NCBI GenBank assembly: GCA_030068145.1
Contig: JAPJBO010000023.1
Location: 1 to 64,000, forward strand
Length of the DNA: 64,000 bases
Source of the DNA: Diplonema papillatum
Taxonomy: Eukaryota > Euglenozoa > Diplonemea > Diplonemida > Diplonemidae
Direction of reading: 5' to 3'
Shown here: positions 1,596-63,907 of the stretch, piece after piece
Numbering within the stretch: position 1 is the first letter of the stretch
Layout of the letters: each line of letters starts with the position of its first letter
The notes under the pieces: model-generated
What the model saw: the letters and a program-made list of their open reading frames with translations, nothing else
Told to the model about the DNA's origin: nothing
Databases searched by the model: none
Made by a program: the position numbers and the translations under genes

Positions 1596-1612
1596 GTTGC
1601 GCCCCTTTTTTT

Positions 1613-1905
1613 TGTGTTCACAACGCGTTGTTGGCACCACCGAGATACAAAAAAGTACTACGTTTTTCGGGTAGAGAAATGTCCTGGATAGGCTATACCC
1701 TATGGCCTGCCAGAAGAGCGGGATAGCTCGCTAGAGAGCCAACGTTGAGAATTGAACAGAGAACCACATGGAACTCAGCAAAGCAGGTGAGCGTTCGCTA
1801 GGGCGCGCAAAATGACGCGTCGTTTATAACCGAAGATTCTAGAAAGAGCAATAGTATTCCGACTGACACTTGCACGAGGTTATTTAGATACTGAGTAGTC
1901 CAGGG
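1613..1905 (+). repeat. Dispersed repeat A, copy 1
   Basis: Starts soon after the exon 1 donor. Landmarks are AACGCGTTGTTGG, ACTACGTTTTTCGGGTAGAG, GCGGGATAGCTCGCTAG, AAAGCAGGTGAG and TTGCACGAGGTTATTTA. Related copies lie at 3013, 5801, 6813, 7306, 10393 and 35972, several of them in this same intron. Termini and class are not resolved. Confidence 0.7.
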
Positions 1906-2050
1906 ACGATGGAGTTTTGAATTCCCTATCGTATCCAGTCACTCGCTCTCGTCCGGGCTATCTTCGCCTATCTTCTCGCTCACGGTCTTCTTTTCTAATT
2001 TTGACCAGTCTATATATTCCTTGAATGTATTCGACGTCCAGTTCTTGCAG

Positions 2051-2621
2051 GGGTTTTCCGACGCTAGCCTTCGTAGATGGTGTTTCCGAGTGCTCATCGA
2101 AGGACAGGAGGTTGTCAAATACGGCCGAACACCCTGATCACCCCCCGAACTACAAAAACCAAGATATTTCCGTGTTGGAGATGTATGCGCTGTTGCAGCT
2201 TGTTCGCTATGTCTTTCGTACACACGCCTGCCAGGCGGTCTCGTCCGCCAGTCAGAACGCCCCCGGCTGCGCCACCATCGGTGCAACAATCATCTTTGAC
2301 AGGGCCACGGCTCGCTCCGCGCCCACGGCGCAACGACTTGCGCCCGCCGTAGTAGTACGGGATAGTAGTGGGGCGACCGGATACTCCTCGGAGAGATGGT
2401 CCCTGCACTCTAACTCGTCTCTCTCTCTCTCTCTCTCTCTCTTTCGTGAAAGGGGGTTTTCCGACGCTAGCCTTCGTAGATGGTGTTTCCGAGTGCTCAT
2501 CGAAGGACAGGAGGTTGTCAAATACGGCCGAACACCCTGATCACCCCCCGAACTACAAAACCAAGATATTTCCGTGTTGGAGATGTATGCGCTGTTGCAG
2601 CTTGTTCGCTATGTCTTTCGT
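2051..2621 (+). repeat. Tandem duplication of about 170 bp split by a retroposon
   Basis: The segment from GGGTTTTCCGACGCTAGCC to GCTATGTCTTTCGT occurs at 2051-2219 and again at 2454-2621. Between the two lies a (CT)n-tailed element. The second copy runs straight through the insertion point and so gives the empty site. In one frame the sequence is part of an RNase H-like domain. Confidence 0.85.
2220..2441 (+). mobile_element. (CT)n-tailed SINE-like retroposon, copy 1
   Basis: The element starts ACACACGCCTGCCAGGCGGT and ends in GCACTCTAACTCGT followed by a long CT run. It is flanked by TTTCGT at 2214-2219 and 2442-2447. The uninterrupted site with a single TTTCGT is at 2616-2621. A microsatellite tail, a short target duplication and a variable 5' end fit target-primed reverse transcription. 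No A/B box was recognised, so the source RNA is unknown. Confidence 0.75.
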
Positions 2622-2830
2622 GAAAGGGGGTTTTCCTGTGTGAGACTCAGAGCTGGAGTAGACAACACACCTGTGATTGGTGCCTGGAGGCTTCACACAA
2701 AATCCGGTGTCCCTCCGAATGCTGCGAAGGCCACGATCTGGTGGGCAAAGGTCTCTCACAAGTAGATCCTTTCTACGTTCCGTCGAAGGACAACCCAGCG
2801 GACGAATTCACGAGGGTCTACTGACAGGGC
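2560..2830 (+). pseudogene. RNase H-like fragment of a retrotransposon
   Basis: Reading through a frameshift, the plus strand gives ISVLEMYALLQLVRYVF, then GVDNTPVIGAW, then FYVPSKDNPADEFTR. This order (Glu helix, Asp-Asn-Thr, then a VPS-x-DNPAD-x-x-TR tail) is typical of RNase H in DIRS/Ngaro-like and related retroelements. A stop and a frame change near 2765 separate the last block. The orientation is opposite to the RT/YR remnant at 3.2-5.4 kb, so it comes from another copy or an inversion. Confidence 0.6.
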
Positions 2831-3012
2831 TGCATCAGACGTCGGCAATAGCTTTTCTTGTCTAGCTTATTCATTTGCTGTTTTTACCTTTGATGCATTG
2901 ATGTCCACCGTTCTTTCTCGAAAAGACAGGACCTTAAAGGAGAGGAAGGTTTTTGGGTGTACTACAAGGACCGCTAGTGCGCACAAACAAAATAAAGCGC
3001 CTTACTATTTCT

Positions 3013-3117
3013 TTGTGTTAACAACGCATTGTTGGTACTAAGAATTAGTAGTTGGCAGCGCACTACATGAAACTTACCAAAGCAGGTGAGTTCCGCTAGT
3101 GCGCACAAACAAAAGAA
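3013..3117 (+). repeat. Dispersed repeat A, copy 2
   Basis: Short form with AACAACGCATTGTTGGTACT, AAGAATTAGTAGTTGGCAGC and AAAGCAGGTGAGTTCCGC. Confidence 0.65.
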
Positions 3118-3159
3118 AGGCCATACTATTTTTTTTTTTTTTTTGCGATCGAATGGCAT

Positions 3160-3690
3160 GTTCAGCTCGTTTTGGTAGAGGAAGCCGGAGCTGTTGTTGC
3201 GTTGTTTGTCCGTTACCACCTTGATGGCGGTATGCGGTACGTCGGTTCTGAAGAACTTCATCTTTCGTACGCAGAAGGCAGACGTACGAAATGACAGCGA
3301 CGTAGTTGAATTCATGCAGCTGGTTTCGGGTTGGCGTTGTGGGGAAGGTGTTCTTCACGATCTGGTCGAGGAGGTGCAAGTCGATGGGATCCATCTGCGC
3401 CCGCTGCAGCACCAACTCCGGTGCCGCCACTCACTGTAGCAGAGCCGCAACCTGCAGCGCGCCTCCGGAGCGACTTACGCCCGCCGTAGCAGTGCGAAGA
3501 GAAGTGAGGAGACCGGAAACTCCCCGGAGAGATGGTCCCTGCACTCTAACTCGTCTCTCTCTCTCTCTCTCTCTTTCTCTTTCCATCTTTCTCGTGGGTC
3601 TCTGCTCGCGCCGCATCCCCTGCACGACCGCCTTCGTCTGGCGAGTTCGGGTGGGTGTGTCAATGCCCATGAACCTTTGGATCTTCTCTA
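3160..3690 (-). pseudogene. Tyrosine recombinase remnant of a DIRS/Ngaro-like element
   Basis: On the minus strand, 3690-3590 reads DTPTRTRQTKAVVQGMRREQ, which resembles the core-binding part of tyrosine recombinases (x-V-x-x-G-x-R-R). After an inserted (CT)n element, 3430-3170 continues with PIDLHLLDQIVKNTFP and VISYVCLLRTKDEVLQNRR. The latter resembles the helix around the first catalytic Arg (LLR-T-x-x-E). It lies directly downstream of the RT and RNase H remnants on the same strand, which is the DIRS-class gene order. The C-terminal His-x-x-Arg and Tyr boxes were not found. Confidence 0.6.
3425..3590 (+). mobile_element. (CT)n-tailed retroposon, divergent copy 2
   Basis: A diverged copy ending GAGAGATGGTCCCTGCACTC then TAACTCG and a CT tract. 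It splits the tyrosine-recombinase remnant, so it arrived after that element. Confidence 0.6.
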
Positions 3691-3908
3691 AGGCGGAGAG
3701 TACGCCTCCTGCCGTGATCGCGTTGTTGCGATTCCCAACAAATGTGGGAACGCGCTCTACCGAGATGGGGAAGTGCGGGATGCCACCGCCCTGTATTCCA
3801 TCTGGGTCTTAAGAGTCCGGTATTCCGTCGATGTTGCCATCGTTTCACGGGTGGGCGGGCGGGGAACTTGAACTCTTTGCGAGTACAAGTCTTCTTTGCG
3901 AAGGTGTT

Positions 3909-4590
3909 CTAGAAGCCTTTGACTCCTACCGTCGCATCGGTGTAGATGATGGTAGGAGCACGGGGAAGGGATACGAGGTTCGCGTTTACCATTCGGTGAC
4001 TTGGACAGAGCTTCTCTTCACCACGACAGTGCACATTGGAGCCGTTCACCCAACTTGTTCTCGGTAACCTTCGTACTGCCGGGACCGAATAGGGTGGAGA
4101 TACTGTCATATTCTGCTGAACAAAGCTCAGCTGTCCCACTAACTTCGCCGCTTTCTGTGGAGATAACATATTGTCGCGCAGAATCTCGTCAATAGTGCGC
4201 AGCAGTTTTGACCTTCTCTCTTCAGTGATGGAAAGGGAAAAGATTGGTGTGAAAACGTCAATCTTCACCCCAAGGTAAGACAGGCACAGTCCTATTCTTT
4301 TCTTCTTGTCCTTGAAGAGTAATCCGATGACAACGGTGAAAACATCTTGGACGTCGTCCGTCATGCCGGAAATATCGTCCGACCTCCCTGTCAGATGAAA
4401 GTCGTCGAAGTACCCCGACGCCGGAATTCCCAAGATGCGTCGCGCTGCAGCGGTAATGAACTTTAGGCAGTTGTAGTCTATCACAGCTGACTCCGTGCCG
4501 AAACACAGGACGGCACTCTTCAAACAAGGAAAGCGCTGCTTCAGCACCGGACTCGAGTGGATACTCATGGTAGCTTTACGCCACAACACC
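3909..4590 (-). pseudogene. Reverse transcriptase remnant (palm, thumb, start of RNase H) of a DIRS/Ngaro-like element
   Basis: On the minus strand the frame reads VLCFGTESAVIDYN, then GIPASGYFDDFHL, where YFDDF takes the place of the catalytic Y-x-DD box. Next come YLGVKID and a thumb region ending LSPQKAAKLVGQLSFVQQ. The frame ends in IIYTDATVGVKGF, where YTDA resembles the first RNase H aspartate block. Readable RNase H-like sequence continues out of frame toward 3700. The 5' half of the RT is separated and lies at 4969-5400. This is a decayed retrotransposon sitting in the GltS-like gene's intron, with no intact gene. Confidence 0.75.
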
Positions 4591-5006
4591 GATGGGGCGC
4601 AGGCATTTCGCTACGGCATTTGTGTTCGTGTGCCCCCGGTCATCACACCAAAGGCCTCTTTCGCGGGCAAGCCAGTACTGGTGTGTTGCAAAGGCGATAT
4701 GGTGCCCTAGCCTTTCTGACGTCGTTGCCGCAGGATCCCGACACCCAACGAGCCACAAGACGGATTGTACAGCGCAACTTGAGCTCCCTGTGCGTCCTCT
4801 GGATGTTGCTCGGAACTGAGATGCGCTTGTAGCCACGGTCTCCATCCCAATTTTTTTTTATTATTTGACCCTGTTATTATTCGACACATCATGCCTCCTC
4901 AATTTTTTATTTTTATTTTTCGACAAATTGAATAATAACATTGTGTTATTATTCGACCCCCCCCTTTAGTCTATCACGGCTGACTCCGTGCCGAAACACA
5001 GGACGT
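4476..5006 (+). repeat. 38-bp direct repeat flanking an interruption of the RT
   Basis: TAGTCTATCAC-R-GCTGACTCCGTG continuing CCGAAACACAGGACG occurs at about 4476-4513 and again at 4967-5006. The intervening 450 bp splits the RT reading frame. It contains an inverted, rearranged MITE at its right end. A 38-bp flank is too long for an ordinary target-site duplication, so a local duplication is more likely. Confidence 0.65.
4854..4968 (-). mobile_element. MITE family 1, rearranged inverted copy
   Basis: The right end reads TGTTATTATTCGACCCCCCC then CTTTA, the inverted terminus of the family described at 33581. The left part is rearranged and AT-rich. Confidence 0.5.
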
Positions 5007-20648: not shown

Positions 20649-21494
20649 CGCTATACCCCGTCGATCCCGGAACCGCCTTCCTCCCGCCCGCACCTGTTCT
20701 ACCCGGGCACGTTGGTCTACGCGGTCATGTTCGGGTCCATCGGGCTGTGCTTCATCGCGGTGGCGGCGTACTGGTACAAGACGTGGAGAGACCGGCGCAG
20801 GCAGGAAGCGCTGGTGGAGCATCCGTTAGAGCAAGGGCTGATCGCAGCGCACAAGGAGAGCTACGAGGCGCTGCTGGAACGCGTCGTCATCGAGTTGGAC
20901 CCGGACGCGACGATCGAGCAGTGCTCGGTTTGCTTGGAGGACTTGATCAACGATCGCGTGGTGCAGCTGCCCGACTGCGGACACCGCATCCACCTTCCGT
21001 GCATGCAGCAGTACTTGACGCACTTGATCGAGAAAAAGCGGACGAAGAACCCGCGATGTCCCATCTGCCGCACGAAGATCCTCCTCGAGCAGCCGGCAGG
21101 GAAGAGCCCGAACAGCTTCGAAATGCGGCGCATGTCCGTCTCGCCTTCGTCGCGCGCAGCCTCGCCCCGCGCGTCTCCCGCCGCGTCGCCGGCGGCGCTG
21201 CCGGCGGCGGCGCCGTCCGAGGCTGAGCAGATGCTCCTGGGTGGCTCGGTGTCCGCTTCCTCTGACCAGGCTGCCGCGGCGCCGCCGACACCCCCGGCTG
21301 CCGCTCCCCTGACGCCCCTTGGAGAGCCGTCGTCCAGGTCTCAGGCCGACATCGACGAAGACTCTGCCCCACTTTTAGACTCTGCCCCGCCGCCTGCTGC
21401 CGTGGAAGCCCTCCACTCGGATTCTGTCCAGCCCGATGACGCCGACGAGCCGGCGGTTGTTGTTGACGACCCGGAATACGAGCTTGCTGAGTGA
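20649..21494 (+). CDS. Transmembrane RING-H2 protein, exon 2
   Basis: Continues in phase 0 after CCCCCGCAG and gives residues 1092-1372. A short juxtamembrane segment (RYTPSIPEPPSSRPHLFYPG) precedes a single helix (VYAVMFGSIGLCFIAVAAYW) with a following Arg/Lys stop-transfer. The RING at about 1183-1233 has C-x2-C (CSVC), then C-x-H-x2-H-x2-C (CGHRIHLPC), then C-x2-C (CPIC). This is the C3H2C3 RING-H2 pattern of E3 ubiquitin ligases that recruit an E2. The tail is Ser/Pro/Ala-rich and acidic. By topology the RING is cytosolic and the exon 1 region is lumenal or extracellular, as in PA-TM-RING proteins but with a different ectodomain. Confidence 0.88.
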   Translation, partial: RYTPSIPEPPSSRPHLFYPGTLVYAVMFGSIGLCFIAVAAYWYKTWRDRRRQEALVEHPLEQGLIAAHKESYEALLERVVIELDPDATIEQCSVCLEDLINDRVVQLPDCGHRIHLPCMQQYLTHLIEKKRTKNPRCPICRTKILLEQPAGKSPNSFEMRRMSVSPSSRAASPRASPAASPAALPAAAPSEAEQMLLGGSVSASSDQAAAAPPTPPAAAPLTPLGEPSSRSQADIDEDSAPLLDSAPPPAAVEALHSDSVQPDDADEPAVVVDDPEYELAE

Positions 21495-22740
21495 CCAGCG
21501 AAAGAAAGATGAGAAAGCCAGAAAAAAGTTGTTTGACTGCCACCCTCAGGTTCTGTCCGACCCGGTGACACAGACGATCTGACGGGTTTTGCTGATGACT
21601 CCTGAGTGATCAGCGAAAGCAGAAAGAAGAGGGGACGAAGGGGGAAAAAGGAAGGATTGCGGGCACTGTAGAAAAAGCGGACCAAAACCCCCCCGGTGCC
21701 CCATCTGCCGCACGAAGATTCCTTCTGGAGCAGCCGGCAGGGAAGAGCTCGAACAGCTTCGAAATGCGGCGCATGTCCGTCTCGCCTTCGTCGCGCGCAG
21801 CCTCGCCCCGCGCGTCTCCCGCCGCGTCGGCGGCGGCGCCGTCCGAGGCTGAGCAGATGCTCCTGGGTGACTTGGTGTCCGCTCCCTCTGACCAGGCTGC
21901 CGCGGCGCCGCCGACACCCCCGGCTGCCGCTCCCCTGACGCCCCTTGGAGAGCCGTCGTCCAGGTCTCAGGCCGACATCGACGAAGACTCTGCCCCACTT
22001 TTAGACTCTGCCCCGCCGCCTGCTGCCGTGGAAGCCCTCCACTCGGATTCTGTCCAGCCCGATGACGCCGACGAGCCGGCGGTTGTTGTTGACGACCCGG
22101 AATACGAGCTTGCTGCGTGACCAGCGAAAGAAAGATGAGAAAGCCAGAAAAAAGTTGTTTGACTGCCACCCTCAGGTTCTGTCCGACCCGGTGACACAGA
22201 CGATCTGACGGGTTTTGCTGATGACTCCTGAGTGATCAGCGAAAGCAGAAAGAAGAGGGGACGAAGGGGGAAAAAGGAAGGATTGCGGGTACTGTAGAAA
22301 AAGCGGACCAAAACCCCCCCGGTGCCCCATCTGCCGCACGAAGATTCCTTCTGGAGCAGCCGGCAGGGAAGAGCCCGAACAGCTTCGAAATGCGGCGCAT
22401 GTCCGTCTCGCCTTCGTCGCGCGCAGCCTCGCCCCGCGCGTCTCCCGCCGCGTCGCCGGCGGCGCCGTCCGAGGCTGAGCAGATGCTCCTGGGTGACTTG
22501 GTGTCCGCTCCCTCTGACCAGGCTGCCGCGGCGCCGCCGACACCCCCGGCTGCCACTCCCCTGACGCCCCTTGGAGCGTCGTCGTCCAGGTCTCAGGCCG
22601 ACATCGACGACGACTCTGCCCCACTTTTAGACTCTGCCCTGCCGCCTGCTGCCGTGGAAGCCCTCCCTTCGGGTTCTGTCCATGACGTCGACGAGTCGAC
22701 GGTTGTTGTTGACGACCCGGAATACAATTCCTCGGAGAGA
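21495..22740 (+). pseudogene. Two tandem copies of the RING-gene 3' end
   Basis: Units of 641 and 626 bp follow the stop. Each has a linker (CGATCTGACGGGTTTTGCTG), the last half of the RING (CCATCTGCCGCACGAAGAT) and the acidic tail. Each lacks the first half of the RING and has no start, so they are not expected to be genes. The tail reading frame is still open in both. The last copy is cut at GACCCGGAATACAA and continues as a (CT)n-retroposon 3' end. Confidence 0.85.
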
Positions 22741-22781
22741 TGGTCCCTGCACTCCAACTCGTCTCTCCCTCTCTCCCCTAA
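22730..22781 (+). mobile_element. (CT)n-tailed retroposon, 5'-truncated copy 3
   Basis: Only the last 50 bp of the element remains (CTCGGAGAGATGGTCCCTGC to a CT-rich tail), directly joined to the third RING-tail copy. Shows the 5'-truncated structure expected of such elements. Confidence 0.65.
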
Positions 22782-32108: not shown

Positions 32109-32167
32109 GATGCTCTGTTCTGCCCACTTTCTCTTTATCCCCCAAAACACAAGTAATCCCAAAAAGG

Positions 32168-33090
32168 CAAAAGTAGACACAAGTGGGCACACGTAGGCAC
32201 ACGTAGGCACAAATAGGCACAAGCAGGCACACGTAGGCCCAGCACAAGTAGGCACAAGCAGGCACACGTAGGCCCAGCACAAGTAGGCACAAACAGGCAC
32301 AACCAGGCACAAGCAGGCACAAACAGGCATACGCAGGCACAAGCAGGCACAAACAGACACAAGCAGGCACAAGCAGCAGGCACAAGCAGGCACAAGCAGG
32401 CACAAGCAGGTACAAACAGGCACAAACAGGCATAAGCAGGCACAAGCAGGCACAAACAGACACAAGCAGGCACAAGCAGCAGGCACAAGCAGGCACAAGC
32501 AGGCACAAGCAGGCACAAGCAGGCACAAGCAGGCACAAGCAGGCACAAGCAGGCACAAGCAGGCACAAGCAGGCACAAGCAGGCACAAGCAGGCACAAGC
32601 AGGCACAAGCAGGCACAAGCAGGCACAAGCAGGCACAAGCAGGCACAAGCAGGCACAAGCAGGCACAAGCAGGCACAAGCAGGCACAAGCAGGCACAAGC
32701 AGGCACAAGCAGGCACAAGCAGGCACAAGCAGGCACAAGCAGGCACAAGCAGGCACAAGCAGGCACAAGCAGGCACAAGCAGGCACAAGCAGGCACAAGC
32801 AGGCACAAGCAGGCACAAGCAGGCACAAGCAGGCACAAGCAGGCACAAGCAGGCACAAGCAGGCACAAGCAGGCACAAGCAGGCACAAGCAGGCACAAGC
32901 AGGCACAAGCAGGCACAAGCAGGCACAAGCAGGCACAAGCAGGCACAAGCAGGCACAAGCAGGCACAAGCAGGCACAAGCAGGCACAAGCAGGCACAAAC
33001 AGGCACAAACAGGCACAAATAGGCACAAATAGGCACAAATAGGCACAAGCAGGCCCAAGTAGGCCAAATAGGCCAAGGTACGCCCAAGTA
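32168..33090. repeat. 10-bp minisatellite (AGGCACAAGC)n
   Basis: About 51 uninterrupted copies at roughly 32486-32999, with variant units on both sides. A short ancestral array (AAGTAGGCTC, AGCAGGCACA) precedes the broken exon copy at 31340-31490, so array and exon were duplicated together. A 10-bp unit leaves all frames of one strand open and produces long but meaningless Cys/Leu/Ala frames. Confidence 0.95.
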
Positions 33091-46151: not shown

Positions 46152-46673
46152 AAGATCAAAGGAGGTAAATGTGCTGTAACCCACACGAAACACAGGTGAA
46201 TCTGGGTTCAGTGGCGGGCGTAAGCGTTCAACTAAAAAGACCCACTTTGTAATTGTATTGTTTATAACGTGGGCGGCGCCGAAGCTTTACCAGCTTCGAC
46301 CGACACCATTTGCGCACTTAACCATGGTTAAGAAGACGACTGAAAGCATGGCCACAAAGATAGCCTCAAAGCATCTGCAGAATAACACGAATAGCCTCTA
46401 GGGGCAAATAGCTATGAATAGAACCCGTTTTCACGTTTCTCCCCCTCTAGCCTCCTTGAAGTAAGCACAAGGCAGCCCCTCGAGTATTTCCAACCCGCCT
46501 GCTGCCCCTACAAGGGCCGTATTGTGGGTCGTTTCATTTAAGCCCTTACCGACCAGCGACCTCCACGGGGGTCGTTAAATAGCCCATTTCTTAGACCCGG
46601 AAAGTTGGGATAGGTGCGTCGAAAACAGCTTTCAAGGGCGGGAATGAAAATATATGTGGCGTATCTCTTGAAT
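46152..46673 (+). repeat. Right part of repeat F and flank
   Basis: Repeat F continues AAAGGAGGTAAATGTGCTG. The rest to 46673 has no gene. CTCCTTGAAGTAAGCACAAG near 46450 recurs near 37710. Confidence 0.6.
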
Positions 46674-47272
46674 CCCGCCCTTGAACCTCGGAAATCCCGC
46701 CCTTGAACCTCGGAAATCCCGCCCTTGAACCTCGGAAATCCCGCCCTTGAACCTCGGAAATCCCGCCCTTGAACCTCGGAAATCCCGCCCTTGAACCTCG
46801 GAAATCCCGCCCTTGAACCTCGGAAATCCCGCCCTTGAACCTCGGAAATCCCGCCCTTGAACCTCGGAAATCCCGCCCTTGAACCTCGGAAATCCCGCCC
46901 TTGAACCTCGGAAATCCCGCCCTTGAACCTCGGAAATCCCGCCCTTGAACCTCGGAAATCCCGCCCTTGAACCTCGGAAATCCCGCCCTTGAACCTCGGA
47001 AATCCCGCCCTTGAACCTCGGAAATCCCGCCCTTGAACCTCGGAAATCCCGCCCTTGAACCTCGGAAATCCCGCCCTTGAACCTCGGAAATCCCGCCCTT
47101 GAACCTCGGAAATCCCGCCCTTGAACCTCGGAAATCCCGCCCTTGAACCTCGGAAATCCCGCCCTTGAACCTCGGAAATCCCGCCCTTGAACCTCGGAAA
47201 TCCCGCCCTTGAACCTCGGAAATCCCGCCCTTGAACCTCGGAAATCCCGCCCTTGAACCTCGGAAATCCCGC
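46674..47272. repeat. 22-bp minisatellite, 27 copies
   Basis: Perfect units CCCGCCCTTGAACCTCGGAA plus AT. Every copy I compared was identical. Because 22 is not a multiple of 3, a minus-strand frame cycles through a 22-residue peptide and stays open. It is not a gene. An inverted arm (TTTCAAGGGCGGGA) stands 40 bp to the left. Confidence 0.95.
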
Positions 47273-47344: not shown

Positions 47345-48000
47345 CTCTCACACCGCAGTCCTGTCTGCAGACACTCAGGTTCCGCGCTGATGATGGTCCG
47401 CCTTATGTGTCCGTGGCTTAAACGACCGAAACACGGCGCAGACGGGACCAGTGCGGTGTTGAGCACATATCCATTTCAAGCACGTTCTTGCAATCCCCCC
47501 ATTCCAGTAGGGTACTTCGCGTAACGCGACTTGCTGCCCTCAACACGCAGGTTAACTTCCTCGCACTCTTTTCCCTTTTGGTACTTCAACCATTGGTGCT
47601 GCACACGGCAACCCCATGCCCACTGTGCTCTGCGGAGTTTACTTCACAGATTGCCACCGTAAAAAGAAGACAAGTCAGTGCTGCCTAGCGAGTCGCAGTC
47701 ACAATCAGGGCGAGTGCCCTGAGTTTCTTAACTGATTGCTCAGACACGGTTGTAGGGGCCTTCTTCCCGTGACGGATTCGCCTGTGCTCTAGTAGCACGG
47801 GTGGTCCTGGCTGTGACGAGCTACGAACAGCCGCCTGACAAACCAGTCTGACATCGCAGTCCTGTCTGCAGACACTCAGGTTCCGCGCTGATGATGGTCC
47901 GCCTTATGTATCCGTGGCTTAAAGGACCAAAACACGGCGCAGACGGGACCAGTGCGGTGTTGAGCACATATCCATTTCAAACACGTTCTTGCAATCCCCC
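47345..48000 (+). repeat. Two repeat E copies
   Basis: Copies at 47345-47500 and 47766-47998, almost identical over 150 bp and separated by 270 bp. The second has the GTGGTCCTGGCTGTGACGAG leader. Confidence 0.75.
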
Positions 48001-48259
48001 CTCGAGGAGTCGTAAAAGTGCCTCAGGGGACCAGTCCTTTCGCATTACAATTTCTGGTATCAGTCCCAAGAATTTGCAAAAAGGTTGCGAAGTGCATTGC
48101 GCTGGGAAATTGTATAGGCACCTGCCTTATTGGAGGCAGCAGTCAGTTGTGAGAGACTGACAGGAATAAACGCTAAAAAGTCAGAGTAGAAGCAAACCGC
48201 GGATCCTTGAAACCCGAAACAGTCCAAAATAAAACGAAAGCGATATTTGGAGTACCTTT

Positions 48260-48280
48260 TTCGTTTCACGGTGAAACGAA
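48260..48280. repeat. 21-bp palindrome at the left edge of the satellite
   Basis: TTCGTTTCAC-G-GTGAAACGAA, perfect arms of 10. It stands where each satellite unit has its CTAATC/GATTAG stem. Confidence 0.85.
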
Positions 48281-51200
48281 GCTAGCGCACATGGTGTGCC
48301 TGATCCAGCACCTACTTACCGATGCCAAGTAGATGCTTTAGTTCAACTCGCTCTCTCTCTCTCTCGTGATGACGAGGAAGCGAGCATTTGGGATAAAGCT
48401 CTGCTAATCAGATTCACGATTAGACGAAGCCAGCGCACATGGTGTGCCTGATCCAGCACCTACTTTCCGATGCCAAGTAGATGCTTTAATTCAACTCGCT
48501 CTCTCTCGTGATGACGAGAAAGCGAGCATTTGGGATAAAGCTCTGCTAATCAGATTCACGATTAGACGAAGCCAGCGCACATGGTGTGCCTGATCCAGCA
48601 CCTACTTTCCGATGCCAAGTAGATGCTTTAATTCAACTCGCTCTCTCTCGTGATGACGAGAAAGCGAGCATTTGGGATAAAGCTCTGCTAATCAGATTCA
48701 CGATTAGACGAAGCCAGCGCACATGGTGTGCCTGATCCAGCACCTACTTTCCGATGCCAAGTAGATGCTTTAATTCAACTCGCTCTCTCTCGTGATGACG
48801 AGAAAGCGAGCATTTGGGATAAAGCTCTGCTAATCAGATTCACGATTAGACGAAGCCAGCGCACATGGTGTGCCTGATCCAGCACCTACTTTCCGATGCC
48901 AAGTAGATGCTTTAATTCAACTCGCTCTCTCTCTCTCTCGTGATGACGAGGAAGCGAGCATTTGGGATGAAGCTCTGCTAATCAGATTCACGATTAGACG
49001 AAGCCAGCGCACATGGTGTGCCTGATCCAGCACCTACTTTCCGATGCCAAGTAGATGCTTTAATTCAACTCGCTCTCTCTCGTGATGACGAGAAAGCGAG
49101 CATTTGGGATAAAGCTCTGCTAATCAGATTCACGATTAGACGAAGCCAGCGCACATGGTGTGCCTGATCCAGCACCTACTTTCCGATGCCAAGTAGATGC
49201 TTTAATTCAACTCGCTCTCTCTCTCTCTCGTGATGACGAGAAAGCGAGCATTTGGGATGAAGCTCTGCTAATCAGATTCACGATTAGACGAAGCCAGCGC
49301 ACATGGTGTGCCTGATCCAGCACCTACTTTCCGATGCCAAGTAGATGCTTTAATTCAACTCGCTCTCTCTCTCTCTCGTGATGACGAGAAAGCGAGCATT
49401 TGGGATGAAGCTCTGCTAATCAGATTCACGATTAGACGAAGCCAGCGCACATGGTGTGCCTGATCCAGCACCTACTTTCCGATGCCAAGTAGATGCTTTA
49501 ATTCAACTCGCTCTCTCTCTCTCTCGTGATGACGAGAAAGCGAGCATTTGGGATGAAGCTCTGCTAATCAGATTCACGATTAGACGAAGCCAGCGCACAT
49601 GGTGTGCCTGATCCAGCACCTACTTTCCGATGCCAAGTAGATGCTTTAATTCAACTCGCTCTCTCTCTCTCTCGTGATGACGAGAAAGCGAGCATTTGGG
49701 ATGAAGCTCTGCTAATCAGATTCACGATTAGACGAAGCCAGCGCACATGGTGTGCCTGATCCAGCACCTACTTTCCGATGCCAAGTAGATGCTTTAATTC
49801 AACTCGCTCTCTCTCTCTCGTGATGACGAGAAAGCGAGCATTTGGGATAAAGCTCTGCTAATCAGATTCACGATTAGACGAAGCCAGCGCACATGGTGTG
49901 CCTGATCCAGCACCTACTTTCCGATGCCAAGTAGATGCTTTAATTCAACTCGCTCTCTCTCTCTCTCGTGATGACGAGAAAGCGAGCATTTGGGATAAAG
50001 CTCTGCTAATCAGATTCACGATTAGACGAAGCCAGCGCACATGGTGTGCCTGATCCAGCACCTACTTTCCGATGCCAAGTAGATGCTTTAATTCAACTCG
50101 CTCTCTCTCTCTCTCGTGATGACGAGAAAGCGAGCATTTGGGATGAAGCTCTGCTAATCAGATTCACGATTAGACGAAGCCAGCGCACATGGTGTGCCTG
50201 ATCCAGCACCTACTTTCCGATGCCAAGTAGATGCTTTAATTCAACTCGCTCTCTCTCTCTCTCGTGATGACGAGGAAGCGAGCATTTGGGATGAAGCTCT
50301 GCTAATCAGATTCACGATTAGACGAAGCCAGCGCACATGGTGTGCCTGATCCAGCACCTACTTTCCGATGCCAAGTAGATGCTTTAATTCAACTCGCTCT
50401 CTCTCTCTCTCGTGATGACGAGGAAGCGAGCATTTGGGATGAAGCTCTGCTAATCAGATTCACGATTAGACGAAGCCAGCGCACATGGTGTGCCTGATCC
50501 AGCACCTACTTTCCGATGCCAAGTAGATGCTTTAATTCAACTCGCTCTCTCTCTCTCTCGTGATGACGAGAAAGCGAGCATTTGGGATAAAGCTCTGCTA
50601 ATCAGATTCACGATTAGACGAAGCCAGCGCACATGGTGTGCCTGATCCAGCACCTACTTTCCGATGCCAAGTAGATGCTTTAATTCAACTCGCTCTCTCT
50701 CTCTCTCGTGATGACGAGGAAGCGAGCATTTGGGATGAAGCTCTGCTAATCAGATTCACGATTAGACGAAGCCAGCGCACATGGTGTGCCTGATCCAGCA
50801 CCTACTTTCCGATGCCAAGTAGATGCTTTAATTCAACTCGCTCTCTCTCTCTCTCGTGATGACGAGGAAGCGAGCATTTGGGATGAAGCTCTGCTAATCA
50901 GATTCACGATTAGACGAAGCCAGCGCACATGGTGTGCCTGATCCAGCACCTACTTTCCGATGCCAAGTAGATGCTTTAATTCAACTCGCTCTCTCTCTCT
51001 CGTGATGACGAGGAAGCGAGCATTTGGGATGAAGCTCTGCTAATCAGATTCACGATTAGACGAAGCCAGCGCACATGGTGTGCCTGATCCAGCACCTACT
51101 TTCCGATGCCAAGTAGATGCTTTAATTCAACTCGCTCTCTCTCTCTCTCGTGATGACGAGAAAGCGAGCATTTGGGATAAAGCTCTGCTAATCAGATTCA

Positions 51201-54200
51201 CGATTAGACGAAGCCAGCGCACATGGTGTGCCTGATCCAGCACCTACTTTCCGATGCCAAGTAGATGCTTTAATTCAACTCGCTCTCTCTCGTGATGACG
51301 AGAAAGCGAGCATTTGGGATAAAGCTCTGCTAATCAGATTCACGATTAGACGAAGCCAGCGCACATGGTGTGCCTGATCCAGCACCTACTTTCCGATGCC
51401 AAGTAGATGCTTTAATTCAACTCGCTCTCTCTCTCTCTCGTGATGACGAGAAAGCGAGCATTTGGGATAAAGCTCTGCTAATCAGATTCACGATTAGACG
51501 AAGCCAGCGCACATGGTGTGCCTGATCCAGCACCTACTTTCCGATGCCAAGTAGATGCTTTAATTCAACTCGCTCTCTCTCTCTCTCGTGATGACGAGAA
51601 AGCGAGCATTTGGGATAAAGCTCTGCTAATCAGATTCACGATTAGACGAAGCCAGCGCACATGGTGTGCCTGATCCAGCACCTACTTTCCGATGCCAAGT
51701 AGATGCTTTAATTCAACTCGCTCTCTCTCGTGATGACGAGAAAGCGAGCATTTGGGATAAAGCTCTGCTAATCAGATTCACGATTAGACGAAGCCAGCGC
51801 ACATGGTGTGCCTGATCCAGCACCTACTTTCCGATGCCAAGTAGATGCTTTAATTCAACTCGCTCTCTCTCTCTCTCGTGATGACGAGGAAGCGAGCATT
51901 TGGGATGAAGCTCTGCTAATCAGATTCACGATTAGACGAAGCCAGCGCACATGGTGTGCCTGATCCAGCACCTACTTTCCGATGCCAAGTAGATGCTTTA
52001 ATTCAACTCGCTCTCTCTCTCTCTCGTGATGACGAGAAAGCGAGCATTTGGGATGAAGCTCTGCTAATCAGATTCACGATTAGACGAAGCCAGCGCACAT
52101 GGTGTGCCTGATCCAGCACCTACTTTCCGATGCCAAGTAGATGCTTTAATTCAACTCGCTCTCTCTCTCTCTCGTGATGACGAGAAAGCGAGCATTTGGG
52201 ATAAAGCTCTGCTAATCAGATTCACGATTAGACGAAGCCAGCGCACATGGTGTGCCTGATCCAGCACCTACTTTCCGATGCCAAGTAGATGCTTAATTCA
52301 ACTCGCTCTCTCTCTCTCTCGTGATGACGAGGAAGCGAGCATTTGGGATGAAGCTCTGCTAATCAGATTCACGATTAGACGAAGCCAGCGCACATGGTGT
52401 GCCTGATCCAGCACCTACTTTCCGATGCCAAGTAGATGCTTTAATTCAACTCGCTCTCTCTCTCTCGTGATGACGAGGAAGCGAGCATTTGGGATGAAGC
52501 TCTGCTAATCAGATTCACGATTAGACGAAGCCAGCGCACATGGTGTGCCTGATCCAGCACCTACTTTCCGATGCCAAGTAGATGCTTTAATTCAACTCGC
52601 TCTCTCTCTCTCTCGTGATGACGAGAAAGCGAGCATTTGGGATAAAGCTCTGCTAATCAGATTCACGATTAGACGAAGCCAGCGCACATGGTGTGCCTGA
52701 TCCAGCACCTACTTTCCGATGCCAAGTAGATGCTTTAATTCAACTCGCTCTCTCTCGTGATGACGAGAAAGCGAGCATTTGGGATAAAGCTCTGCTAATC
52801 AGATTCACGATTAGACGAAGCCAGCGCACATGGTGTGCCTGATCCAGCACCTACTTTCCGATGCCAAGTAGATGCTTTAATTCAACTCGCTCTCTCTCTC
52901 TCTCGTGATGACGAGAAAGCGAGCATTTGGGATAAAGCTCTGCTAATCAGATTCACGATTAGACGAAGCCAGCGCACATGGTGTGCCTGATCCAGCACCT
53001 ACTTTCCGATGCCAAGTAGATGCTTTAATTCAACTCGCTCTCTCTCTCTCGTGATGACGAGAAAGCGAGCATTTGGGATGAAGCTCTGCTAATCAGATTC
53101 ACGATTAGACGAAGCCAGCGCACATGGTGTGCCTGATCCAGCACCTACTTTCCGATGCCAAGTAGATGCTTTAATTCAACTCGCTCTCTCTCTCTCTCGT
53201 GATGACGAGAAAGCGAGCATTTGGGATAAAGCTCTGCTAATCAGATTCACGATTAGACGAAGCCAGCGCACATGGTGTGCCTGATCCAGCACCTACTTTC
53301 CGATGCCAAGTAGATGCTTTAATTCAACTCGCTCTCTCTCTCTCTCGTGATGACGAGGAAGCGAGCATTTGGGATGAAGCTCTGCTAATCAGATTCACGA
53401 TTAGACGAAGCCAGCGCACATGGTGTGCCTGATCCAGCACCTACTTTCCGATGCCAAGTAGATGCTTTAATTCAACTCGCTCTCTCTCTCTCGTGATGAC
53501 GAGAAAGCGAGCATTTGGGATGAAGCTCTGCTAATCAGATTCACGATTAGACGAAGCCAGCGCACATGGTGTGCCTGATCCAGCACCTACTTTCCGATGC
53601 CAAGTAGATGCTTTAATTCAACTCGCTCTCTCTCTCTCTCGTGATGACGAGAAAGCGAGCATTTGGGATAAAGCTCTGCTAATCAGATTCACGATTAGAC
53701 GAAGCCAGCGCACATGGTGTGCCTGATCCAGCACCTACTTTCCGATGCCAAGTAGATGCTTTAATTCAACTCGCTCTCTCTCGTGATGACGAGAAAGCGA
53801 GCATTTGGGATAAAGCTCTGCTAATCAGATTCACGATTAGACGAAGCCAGCGCACATGGTGTGCCTGATCCAGCACCTACTTTCCGATGCCAAGTAGATG
53901 CTTTAATTCAACTCGCTCTCTCTCTCTCTCGTGATGACGAGAAAGCGAGCATTTGGGATAAAGCTCTGCTAATCAGATTCACGATTAGACGAAGCCAGCG
54001 CACATGGTGTGCCTGATCCAGCACCTACTTTCCGATGCCAAGTAGATGCTTTAATTCAACTCGCTCTCTCTCTCTCTCGTGATGACGAGGAAGCGAGCAT
54101 TTGGGATGAAGCTCTGCTAATCAGATTCACGATTAGACGAAGCCAGCGCACATGGTGTGCCTGATCCAGCACCTACTTTCCGATGCCAAGTAGATGCTTT

Positions 54201-54612
54201 AATTCAACTCGCTCTCTCTCTCTCTCGTGATGACGAGAAAGCGAGCATTTGGGATAAAGCTCTGCTAATCAGATTCACGATTAGACGAAGCCAGCGCACA
54301 TGGTGTGCCTGATCCAGCACCTACTTTCCGATGCCAAGTAGATGCTTTAATTCAACTCGCTCTCTCTCTCTCTCGTGATGACGAGAAAGCGAGCATTTGG
54401 GATGAAGCTCTGCTAATCAGATTCACGATTAGACGAAGCCAGCGCACATGGTGTGCCTGATCCAGCACCTACTTTCCGATGCCAAGTAGATGCTTTAATT
54501 CAACTCGCTCTCTCTCTCTCTCTCGTGATGACGAGGAAGCGAGCATTTGGGATAAAGCTCTGCTAATCAGATTCACGATTAGACGAAGCTAGCGCACTTT
54601 CCGATAGCCAAT
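48277..54612 (+). repeat. Satellite of about 43 units of 140-150 bp with four phased stem-loops
   Basis: Each unit contains, in order, GCACA-TGG-TGTGC; CTACTT, nine bases, AAGTAG; a CT-tract arm CTCGCT(CT)nCG, loop TGATGA, arm CGAG[A/G]AAGCGAG; and CTAATC, eight bases, GATTAG. Units differ mainly in CT-tract length and at two A/G positions. The first unit and the terminal remnant (GAAGCTAGCGCAC) are diverged. The array lies in the proposed 12.6-kb intron between exons at 42150 and 54959. It has no coding potential: stops occur in all frames. The mean unit is about 146 bp. Confidence 0.97.
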
Positions 54613-54958
54613 ATCGATGTTTTAGTCGTAAAAGATCGCAGATCTTAGAAGATTACTACATCCGACGAATACCTAACACTTGTATAAGGTTAAATAACCC
54701 CGTCGCTATCCCGAAAACATCGTCACTTCACCCCTCGCTTGCCCACCCACCCTTGCCCCCTTTTTCTGAAGCCGTGTCCTGAGGCGTCACGACGATTGTG
54801 ACAAACACACCGAATCACTGCCTGACCTTTCTGCTGTTCGATTTTTGCATCATCCGCGACGGTGAAGACGAAGCAGCAGACGGAGCCAGTATACGCAGTA
54901 GGAGGAGGATGTGTTATTCTCACTCTGTTCTTTTCCTTCAATTCAAACCCACCAACAG

Positions 54959-61886: not shown

Positions 61887-63824
61887 TTATGTCATGTGCT
61901 GGCGGATGTGCCGTGTCCACGCACCCTTTGATCCAAGCTTTCTCCAGCACAGCTTGCATCGAAGAGGCTCATCGAAGAGAGCAGGATGCTTTTTTTGGAC
62001 ATGCTGACTCATTCCAGCTGCCTTTACTTTTACACGACATGCAGGGCATTCAGCCATGCAGTGGCATTGAATGCGGTCGCGATGTGCTGCGTCGATATGG
62101 GCAGCCATCGAGGATTCCACAGCTTTTTTGCCACAAAAGTCGCACGGCAAATATGTTTCCGCTTCTTCTTCTTCTTCTTCGTCTTCGTCTTCTTCGTCGT
62201 CTGCTTTCTCCTCACACTCCTCTGCTGCATCGCTATCACCCGCTTCCTCCAATTCCTTCTGAGCTCTCTGCACGAGGTTCTTGGTGAGGTTCTTGTCTGG
62301 CACAAACAGCGGCAGTTGTGGGGGGGCTGTCGGCGCCTCGCAGTTGCACACACGAATCGTTCCAGTTCCACCCGCAAACCGGAACGCCGTATAGGGCCCC
62401 CCACGAAAGACGAAGTTGGTTTTCATTGCGGCAAGCTGCTCACAAAGAACGATAAGGGCTAGATTGCTACGCGCATTGCGGTGCAGGCAATCGCAAATCA
62501 AAACTGTTTGTTTTCCGCGAAAGCCTGTCTGGGACAGATCCGCAACCTTCCACGGAAGTCGGCGGGCTCTCCGTTTTTCCTCCGCGCATGCCAGATCTAC
62601 CTCGCAGGTTTTTGGGCTGCTGATCATGGGCACGTCAGCTTTCCGCTCTCCGTTTTCTGCCTCCTCAGCTTCATCCGAACACTGCAATGGAAGGGCATCC
62701 ATGCGATCCCACCAATGGCTGAGGCTGTGGCAATACGCATTCGTTGTTGAGCCCTTTCGCACGCTTTCCATGAGGTGGAGGAAGATGTGCGCAGATAAAC
62801 GGGCACGCAAAAAGGGGATGCGGGCGGCAGTTTCTTTTTGACCCCAGTAACGCCAGGGTACGTCCGAATACCGGAATTCGGCAAGGTCGCTTAGGCTGAT
62901 GAATAGCCAGCGAAATGTTGGTGATAGCTCTCGTTGCGCCATCATGGAGACTACCTTCCTCACGTGCGCTCCGGTAGCATTCTGGCTGACATCGATGTTC
63001 AAAGTGCTGCACAGGTCTCGAAGTGCCGACGTACTCTCAGCATCCAGCTCCTTGAACAACGCCAACCCCATACCCTTTATGTCGTGCAGGGCTGGAGAAA
63101 CGTAGTGTGCTGATGGTGCCACTGCGCTCAGCAGCGATGTGTAGCCAGCTGCAGCCATTTGGGCAAGGCTGAGGTGAGGAAAGCGATGTATGTACATGCT
63201 CCATTCGCTTGTTGGAACGGTGCATACTGCGCAGCGGTGGCCTCTTCCACCACACCCGTCAAGCCTCTGCCATCGGTCAAAGTGATCTCCGGTGATCTTT
63301 TCGATCCGAACCCGAGTCACACCGTGGCCGCGAACGATCTTTGCATTGTGAAGGCGCAAAATTGCATGGTTGAGAAACCGGTTCTCGAAATGCTTAAATT
63401 GCGCTTTCTTCCGGTCGACGACAGTTACGGACGGGACAAAACCGCCGGTTTCTGGGTATACCAGGGACATCGACAGACGTGTGCGCGCGTTGCGCGATCT
63501 CAGCGAGTTTCTTGCTGTGTACCCGTCGGTATACAGTACGCCAACAAGCGGTACGGAAGACAATCTTGCGGATTCACGCCACCCCTCCTCTTCCAAGACC
63601 TTGAACGCACCTGCTAAGCCCCGTTGCAGTCTCTCCTTTACTCGAGAGCGCGACTCCTTCTCCACTTTTCTGCAGCGCTTCACGGACACCCCGATACTCA
63701 TGCTAGTACGCCGCTTGTGCGACTTATTGACAAGGTCTAGCTTTCTCTGGGAGGTCCGTGTTGCATAACGCTCTTCGATGAGAGTTTTGCCCACTTCTAA
63801 CACAGCAGCGTTTGCGGATTGCAT
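61887..63824 (-). CDS. Putative DDE-type transposase or derived protein with C2H2 zinc fingers
   Basis: An intact 645-codon single-exon frame. The N-terminus is basic (about 20-75). VLYTDGYTARNSLRSRN (Asp100) looks like the first acidic residue of an RNase H-fold transposase, followed by a sheet-like stretch. ITGDHFDRW (Asp180) and GHRCAVC (Cys198/201) resemble the GD-x-K...C-x-x-C block of KDZ-like and related eukaryotic transposases. SPALHDIKGMG (about 243-253) resembles the following LH-x-x-G block. After an acidic stretch (about 535-560) come three C2H2-like fingers: CDFCGKK at 561, CPACRVK at 593 and CKLCWRK at 623. Coding bias is weaker than in the other genes. The transposase assignment is an inference; the zinc fingers are clear. 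Confidence 0.55.
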   Translation of the reverse strand: MQSANAAVLEVGKTLIEERYATRTSQRKLDLVNKSHKRRTSMSIGVSVKRCRKVEKESRSRVKERLQRGLAGAFKVLEEEGWRESARLSSVPLVGVLYTDGYTARNSLRSRNARTRLSMSLVYPETGGFVPSVTVVDRKKAQFKHFENRFLNHAILRLHNAKIVRGHGVTRVRIEKITGDHFDRWQRLDGCGGRGHRCAVCTVPTSEWSMYIHRFPHLSLAQMAAAGYTSLLSAVAPSAHYVSPALHDIKGMGLALFKELDAESTSALRDLCSTLNIDVSQNATGAHVRKVVSMMAQRELSPTFRWLFISLSDLAEFRYSDVPWRYWGQKETAARIPFLRARLSAHIFLHLMESVRKGSTTNAYCHSLSHWWDRMDALPLQCSDEAEEAENGERKADVPMISSPKTCEVDLACAEEKRRARRLPWKVADLSQTGFRGKQTVLICDCLHRNARSNLALIVLCEQLAAMKTNFVFRGGPYTAFRFAGGTGTIRVCNCEAPTAPPQLPLFVPDKNLTKNLVQRAQKELEEAGDSDAAEECEEKADDEEDEDEEEEEEAETYLPCDFCGKKAVESSMAAHIDAAHRDRIQCHCMAECPACRVKVKAAGMSQHVQKKHPALFDEPLRCKLCWRKLGSKGAWTRHIRQHMT

Positions 63825-63907
63825 GGTTTAATTATTTGTCTTCCTGTGATGAATGAGTCCTTCGATATCGTCTCTGGGCCCCTTATCCACGGACATGGTG
63901 TGACCAG

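Follow-up and report, generated by a model that had tools for sequence, protein, structure and literature searches.

A 6.3-kb tandem array of 43 near-identical units in Diplonema papillatum very probably represents the recent, local expansion of a retrotransposon end-junction, in which unequal exchange multiplied an A-(CT)n-B'-A pair. Here, A is a repeat of ~100 bp, B is its companion in the end repeats of the source element, and B' is a truncated B. The array lies in a window of 64,000 nucleotides, the whole stretch of DNA analysed, and was compared with the surrounding genome of 271 Mb in 2910 contigs. It looks like a by-product of the genome and not like a novel system of RNA or DNA structures, and its unusual aspects are the source element and the CT-tract sites of that element. 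The original prediction had put the array forward as a candidate undescribed system of folded RNA or cruciforms; as evidence for such a system it does not hold. The array and the four stems noted in its unit, exemplified by unit 1, are as follows.

48276..54582, plus strand: 43 complete units in tandem, each of 142-150 bp, from unit splitting, Tandem Repeats Finder and homology to the dispersed A repeat
48287..48299, no strand assigned: stem 1, GCACA/TGTGC
48308..48336, minus strand: stem 2, a 10-bp hairpin, GCATCTACTT/AAGTAGGTGC
48347..48384, no strand assigned: stem 3, CTCGCT...AGCGAG, spanning the CT tract and the truncated B tail
48404..48423, no strand assigned: stem 4, CTAATC/GATTAG

Splitting at ACGAAGC[C/T]AGCGCAC gave 43 complete units with a mean of 146.7 bp, bearing out the estimate of about 43 copies of about 146 bp; the lengths are 148 (28 units), 142 (eight), 146 (five), 147 (one) and 150 bp (one), and the Tandem Repeats Finder figure is 43.2 copies with a period of 148. 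Each unit consists of an A-like repeat, G(CT)n and a shortened B tail, CGTGATGACGAG[A/G]AAGCGAGCATTTGGGAT, resembling the terminal part of B (...GGTGAAATGAAAGCGAGAATGTGG). The 43 units fall into ten different sequences, which are set apart by the CT number, by two A/G sites, by the loss of a single base and by three substitutions found in unit 1 alone. The CT run ranges from CT 4 to 8, with seven CT in 29 units, four in eight, six in five and eight in one. Length change had been described as confined to this arm, which is correct for 42 of the 43 units; the unit at 52232 lacks one base outside the CT run. All four inverted repeats are present in 43/43 units, as originally stated. Units this alike would agree whether selection kept them so or recent copying produced them, and relatives elsewhere in the genome are needed to tell the two apart. 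The prediction had itself allowed for very recent amplification, and this part is upheld by the near-identical interior units and their single locus: a 26-mer from the array has 43 exact occurrences in the genome, all within the array, and six other places match it at 3 mismatches.

Such relatives are plentiful. The unit matches many dispersed places at 83-87% identity over about 85-104 bp (40 of 876 candidates scored), and a 29-base core of A gives 977 genome hits at no more than 3 mismatches, array included, with about 930 others. Against the common dispersed form of A, the unit is identical in 109 of 133 alignable columns (82%). By this homology the unit counts as a TE-derived tandem repeat, homologous to part of a dispersed mobile element. 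Of the first 20 stretches fetched, 10 have a partner for A at a distance of about 2.4-2.8 kb; two also show a spacing of 3.4 kb, and three later stretches one of 3.9 kb. Between the A copies of L024, L018 and L012 (the first three listed), the opposite strand is coding, and a reverse transcriptase (RT) was recognised in the source element (RVT_1, E=1.9e-9, L024:745-2766, minus strand). Fuller copies contain a further frame that, read by eye, resembles a tyrosine recombinase. Its profile match is weak (phrog_1 integrase, E=0.033), and searches of Pfam, NCBIfam and PDB with this frame returned no hit; we take the residues R...SFRRGAAT...GH...Y in L012 and L039, again by eye, to be a putative tyrosine recombinase motif. 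The source element probably encodes such a recombinase. In the coding direction, its parts are ordered A1 - gag-like - recombinase-like - RT region - B1 - A2 - B2, and the corresponding split direct repeats (A1-ORFs-B1-A2-B2) are present on L024, L039 and others. The frames of L039 are as follows.

L039 4399-5328, minus strand: gag-like frame
L039 3346-4398, minus strand: recombinase-like frame
L039, in frame 1607-4654, minus strand: RT part

Judged from these layouts, A is the terminal repeat of an abundant retrotransposon with a reverse transcriptase and split direct repeats. No methyltransferase domain was found in the four L024 and L012 frames scanned. Pattern scans of viral and prokaryote genome contigs gave no match to the A core, and a search of viral contigs with a 383-residue RT piece confirmed no relative. 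L024, L012 and L018, with A copies spaced 2.56 kb apart, are 99.9% identical over 2.8 kb, and their common 674-aa frame appears to join the gag-like region to the RT without the recombinase part; they appear to be a recently spread deletion form of the element.

The ends of the element lie mostly in CT tracts. Among ends recognised by exact motifs in the fetched stretches, which were picked by A similarity rather than randomly and of which several share flanks, so that the insertions are not independent, TC runs of 8 nt or more come directly after 25 of 31 outer A ends and directly before 17 of 21 outer B ends. Elsewhere in the window, about 0.05% of positions are followed by TCTCTCTC. The six A-end exceptions comprise a TTC tract (L019), a GCTCTC start (L015), short TC starts (L010, L022) and ends with no TC (L045, L052), and the four B-end exceptions are TTC or interrupted CT tracts (L009, L019, L038, L045); the A end of L053, outside the 31-end count, also runs into TC. 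The A2-B1 junction reads CAAACTC/GGAAAAGG, and a shared CTC could be a crossover site. It is conceivable, though we would not expect it, that CT microsatellites are landing sites of the recombinase through a CTC match at the circle junction, that stem 2 is a functional cis element, and that the array is a hot landing pad growing and shrinking with element activity. In the titles and abstract openings of the literature searched, no description of CT or microsatellite targeting by such retrotransposons was found.

Arrangements that resemble early states of the array occur elsewhere in the genome. L015 carries a solo B-A inside a CT tract; L014 has the order of the array, A-(CT)n-truncated B-A, as a pair of period 168; three consecutive A copies are found in each of L009 and L010, those of L009 with successive A-(CT)n-B-A junctions; and triplets lie at C122, a gapless A-B-A-B-A run, and at C1011. 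Tandem pairs were counted with 12-base patterns that require an exact core, so the counts are minima and an array on a changed core would be missed: 42 pairs genome-wide have a period of 127-157 (41 in the array and one at C647), 10 have a period of 158-188, and 15 have a period of 189-219. Judged from the sequence letters shown for each, 13 of the last class read A-(CT or TTC)n, and C234 and C258 do not. A survey of array locations across the genome, which had been proposed as a check, places the expanded array at this locus only, with pairs and triplets elsewhere (exact-core searches). One genome may in this way display the possible stages from a microsatellite-placed terminal repeat to an array: solo copy, pair, triplet and 43-mer.

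On the favoured reading, an element or a solo B-A repeat would have inserted in a CT tract beside another A, giving an A-(CT)n-B'-A pair. B would then have been truncated, and repeated unequal exchange, helped by CT slippage, would have multiplied a period of roughly 148 bp to 43 copies. Stems 1, 3 and 4 would be properties of the founder unit, copied along with it.

We consider it improbable that the recombinase of the element, rather than host exchange, built the array by serial insertion, with identical B-A circles integrating successively into the CT tract. The CT-tract position of most element ends is in keeping with such a process, as are the solo B-A of L015, the successive junctions of L009 and the gapless run at C122. 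However, a truncated B and private substitutions are common to all 43 units, which is not what full B-A circles inserted one by one would leave, and the exact-core searches found only pairs and triplets elsewhere.

The edges of the array also bear on how it grew.

48227..48290, plus strand: diverged A1-type context running into the first unit, resembling AAATAAAATGAAAGCGAG...ACGAAGCTAGCGCAC at the A1 side of L017
54583..54615, plus strand: truncated, diverged A copy at the right edge (64.1 bits for 54535-54624, end of unit 43 included)
54616..54900, no strand assigned: unrelated dispersed repeat starting where A homology ends; among the scored candidates it has at least 39 further matches of 93-96%

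On the left, nhmmer gives 93.8 bits for 48237-48350, and a local alignment of the flank without the A core scores 31, against a maximum of 27 in 300 shuffles. On the right, the unrelated repeat has a rather sharp left end, its matches starting at 54613-54628 and mostly at 54616-54620. Both edge copies read GCTAGC, as do dispersed copies, and interior units read GCCAGC. Unequal exchange typically leaves such a pattern, uniform inside and deviant at the edges. The signal for unit types recurring in blocks is weak, appearing at lags 7 and 10 (P=0.026 and 0.037; 21 lags, uncorrected). A piece related to the 54616-54900 repeat also lies close to the A pair of L014.

The stems were the reason for proposing selection, and a selected array of structured RNA or cruciforms, its four stems kept for the function of a folded transcript or of extruded DNA, now seems very unlikely. 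The folding potential of the unit does exceed chance, most clearly on the minus strand (z against shuffles of -3.62 for minus RNA, -2.29 for plus RNA and -2.21 for plus DNA), which speaks for such an array. The number of short stems, taken alone, is unremarkable: a count of perfect inverted repeats with loops of 3-20 in one unit gives 4 for a minimum arm of 5, where 5000 dinucleotide shuffles lead one to expect 2.4 (P=0.22), and 3 for a minimum arm of 6, where the expectation from shuffles is 0.64 (P=0.023).

Copies of A were then aligned in 22 rows, two from the window and 20 dispersed. These were picked for diversity from 40 distinct rows, taken from the 104 hits (out of 110) that score 60 bits or more. 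The ten minus-strand pairs of stem 2 are complete, counting G-U, in 17 of the 20 dispersed copies, again a point in favour of a structured array, and 98% and 96% of cells pair in its two half-helices across the 22 rows. Its changes are one-sided, with C-G for U-G in 5 of 22 rows (both window rows included) and U-G for C-G in two. Stem 2 (CTACTT/AAGTAG) is, going by the alignment, inherited from the dispersed A repeat, and is probably what remains of an RNA or DNA structure that acts in cis in the element. The other stems fare differently: stem 1 is complete in 0/20 dispersed copies, the same pair failing every time, and stem 4 is complete in 0/17 copies with letters there. Stem 3 lies outside A, as a link between the CT run and the B tail, and its outer arm, CTCGCT...AGCGAG, occurs at one of nine other A-A junctions among the fetched stretches (L014); it is best read as a product of the (CT)n-B junction. 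Selection on all four stems is not supported by these counts. What stands of the claimed maintenance is stem 2, kept through G-U pairs and belonging to the retrotransposon end-repeat, and for stems 1 and 4 the dispersed copies show the very pattern named beforehand as telling against it, namely other units with disrupted stems and no compensation.

Covariation points the same way. The paired fraction of the whole structure set is no better than chance, 354 of 500 shuffles reaching the same value. Three pairs are changed on both sides, a number reached by 14 of 500 shuffles and so in favour of a structured array, but all three belong to stem 4 and each is a single cell, and two of six slid control structures yield as many double changes as the real one. 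The compensatory changes expected of a conserved structured RNA were not found across the aligned A copies, stem 2 showing one-sided changes only. Folded on the minus strand, a common A copy does no better than shuffles (z 0.46), and two more diverged copies give z -1.45 and -1.32. Among the flanks of three diverged recombinase matches, one (L053) contains an A repeat, and that one is of the common type, so the diverged A copies sampled number about ten. The search brought up no dispersed copy that closely resembles the window unit, and hence no founder subfamily; stems 1 and 4 may either have been gained at the array or be older states lost in the common family.

Pairing at the A/G site of stem 3, where the G variant is present in 13/43 units, had been expected to persist as A-T, G-T or G-C. 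On the plus strand, with 7 CT, the variable base indeed pairs with T, as A (-15.5 kcal/mol) or as G (-14.6), the A-U or G-U of a transcript, as a structured array would have it. However, on the minus strand, which folds better, the G variant loses its pair (-18.7 to -14.5 kcal/mol), and G-C pairing appeared in none of the folds made. An Rfam scan of the whole window gave no match at gathering thresholds, and a tRNA scan (bacterial code) found none. Silencing of the family by small RNAs from the array was considered and rejected, the longest exact match between unit and common A being 16 nt and that to the best dispersed copy examined 21 nt.

A centromeric or genome-wide satellite with a nucleosome-length period, suggested by the mean unit of 146.7 bp, can practically be dismissed, the abundant long arrays at many sites of a classical satellite being absent (unit at one locus, its tandem period there and at one other pair in exact-core searches) and the flanks being dispersed repeats.

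VIPER elements have the gene order gag-YR-RT. Split direct repeats like those of the source element have been described for PAT, Ngaro and VIPER elements (passages of PMC4157794 and PMC6681497), and a methyltransferase domain is given as a DIRS/PAT feature (passages of PMC4157794). The Ngaro of Cafeteria burkhardae shares the A1-[ORFs]-B1A2B2 arrangement and the combination of reverse transcriptase and tyrosine recombinase (probable here); its order, however, is gag, RT-RH, YR, with the recombinase as ORF3 after the RT, whereas in L039 the recombinase-like frame precedes the RT (passages of PMC8547959). Isolated AB repeats of this Ngaro have been likened to solo LTRs, and the passages seen mention neither an expanded tandem array nor a CT-tract location (PMC8547959). 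In the kinetoplastids, VIPER/SIRE and TATE also carry split direct repeats, a likeness of layout, SIRE being the A2-B2 region of VIPER; TATE forms tandem clusters inside the simple telomeric repeat, whereas the source element sits in CT microsatellites rather than telomeric hexamers (passages of PMC6681497).

Satellites built from TE parts resemble the array in the tandem amplification of terminal repeats, and the mechanisms reviewed for them include unequal exchange among repeats as well as insertions that recur at a single site (passages of PMC12628747 and PMC9659126). The main texts of these two reviews contain neither the word DIRS nor tyrosine recombinase. Endogenous nimaviruses of crustaceans likewise associate a tyrosine recombinase with insertion into a short tandem motif, but they are large DNA viruses and the motif is telomeric, (TAACC)n (passages of PMC10871703). 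The kind of array is already known, then, in that terminal-repeat satellites and solo AB repeats have been reported, and the source repeat with its CT-tract placement is a variant of which the titles and passages searched hold no description. The strong CT-tract location of this family could offer a way to test where tyrosine-recombinase retrotransposons prefer to integrate.

Several other features of the window were recorded. Just before the array, 46671-47272 holds 27.4 copies of a 22-bp unit, AATCCCGCCCTTGAACCTCGGA, that match at 100%, a minisatellite that is either very recent or constrained. A dispersed repeat of about 100-120 bp occurs twice in the window (47900-48022 and 47399-47500) and has more than 40 other matches, and about 90 copies of a 10-bp unit, AGGCACAAGC, occupy 32165-33064 and are open in several frames. 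The minus-strand frame at 3909-4610 resembles, on inspection by eye, a DIRS-type RT/RNase H and has no Pfam hit, and a 646-aa open frame at 61887-63827, also on the minus strand, has only a sub-threshold C-terminal zinc-finger match. Finally, near-identical open frames are repeated on the minus strand at 20947-22777, beside a RING-finger gene, which suggests local tandem duplication.
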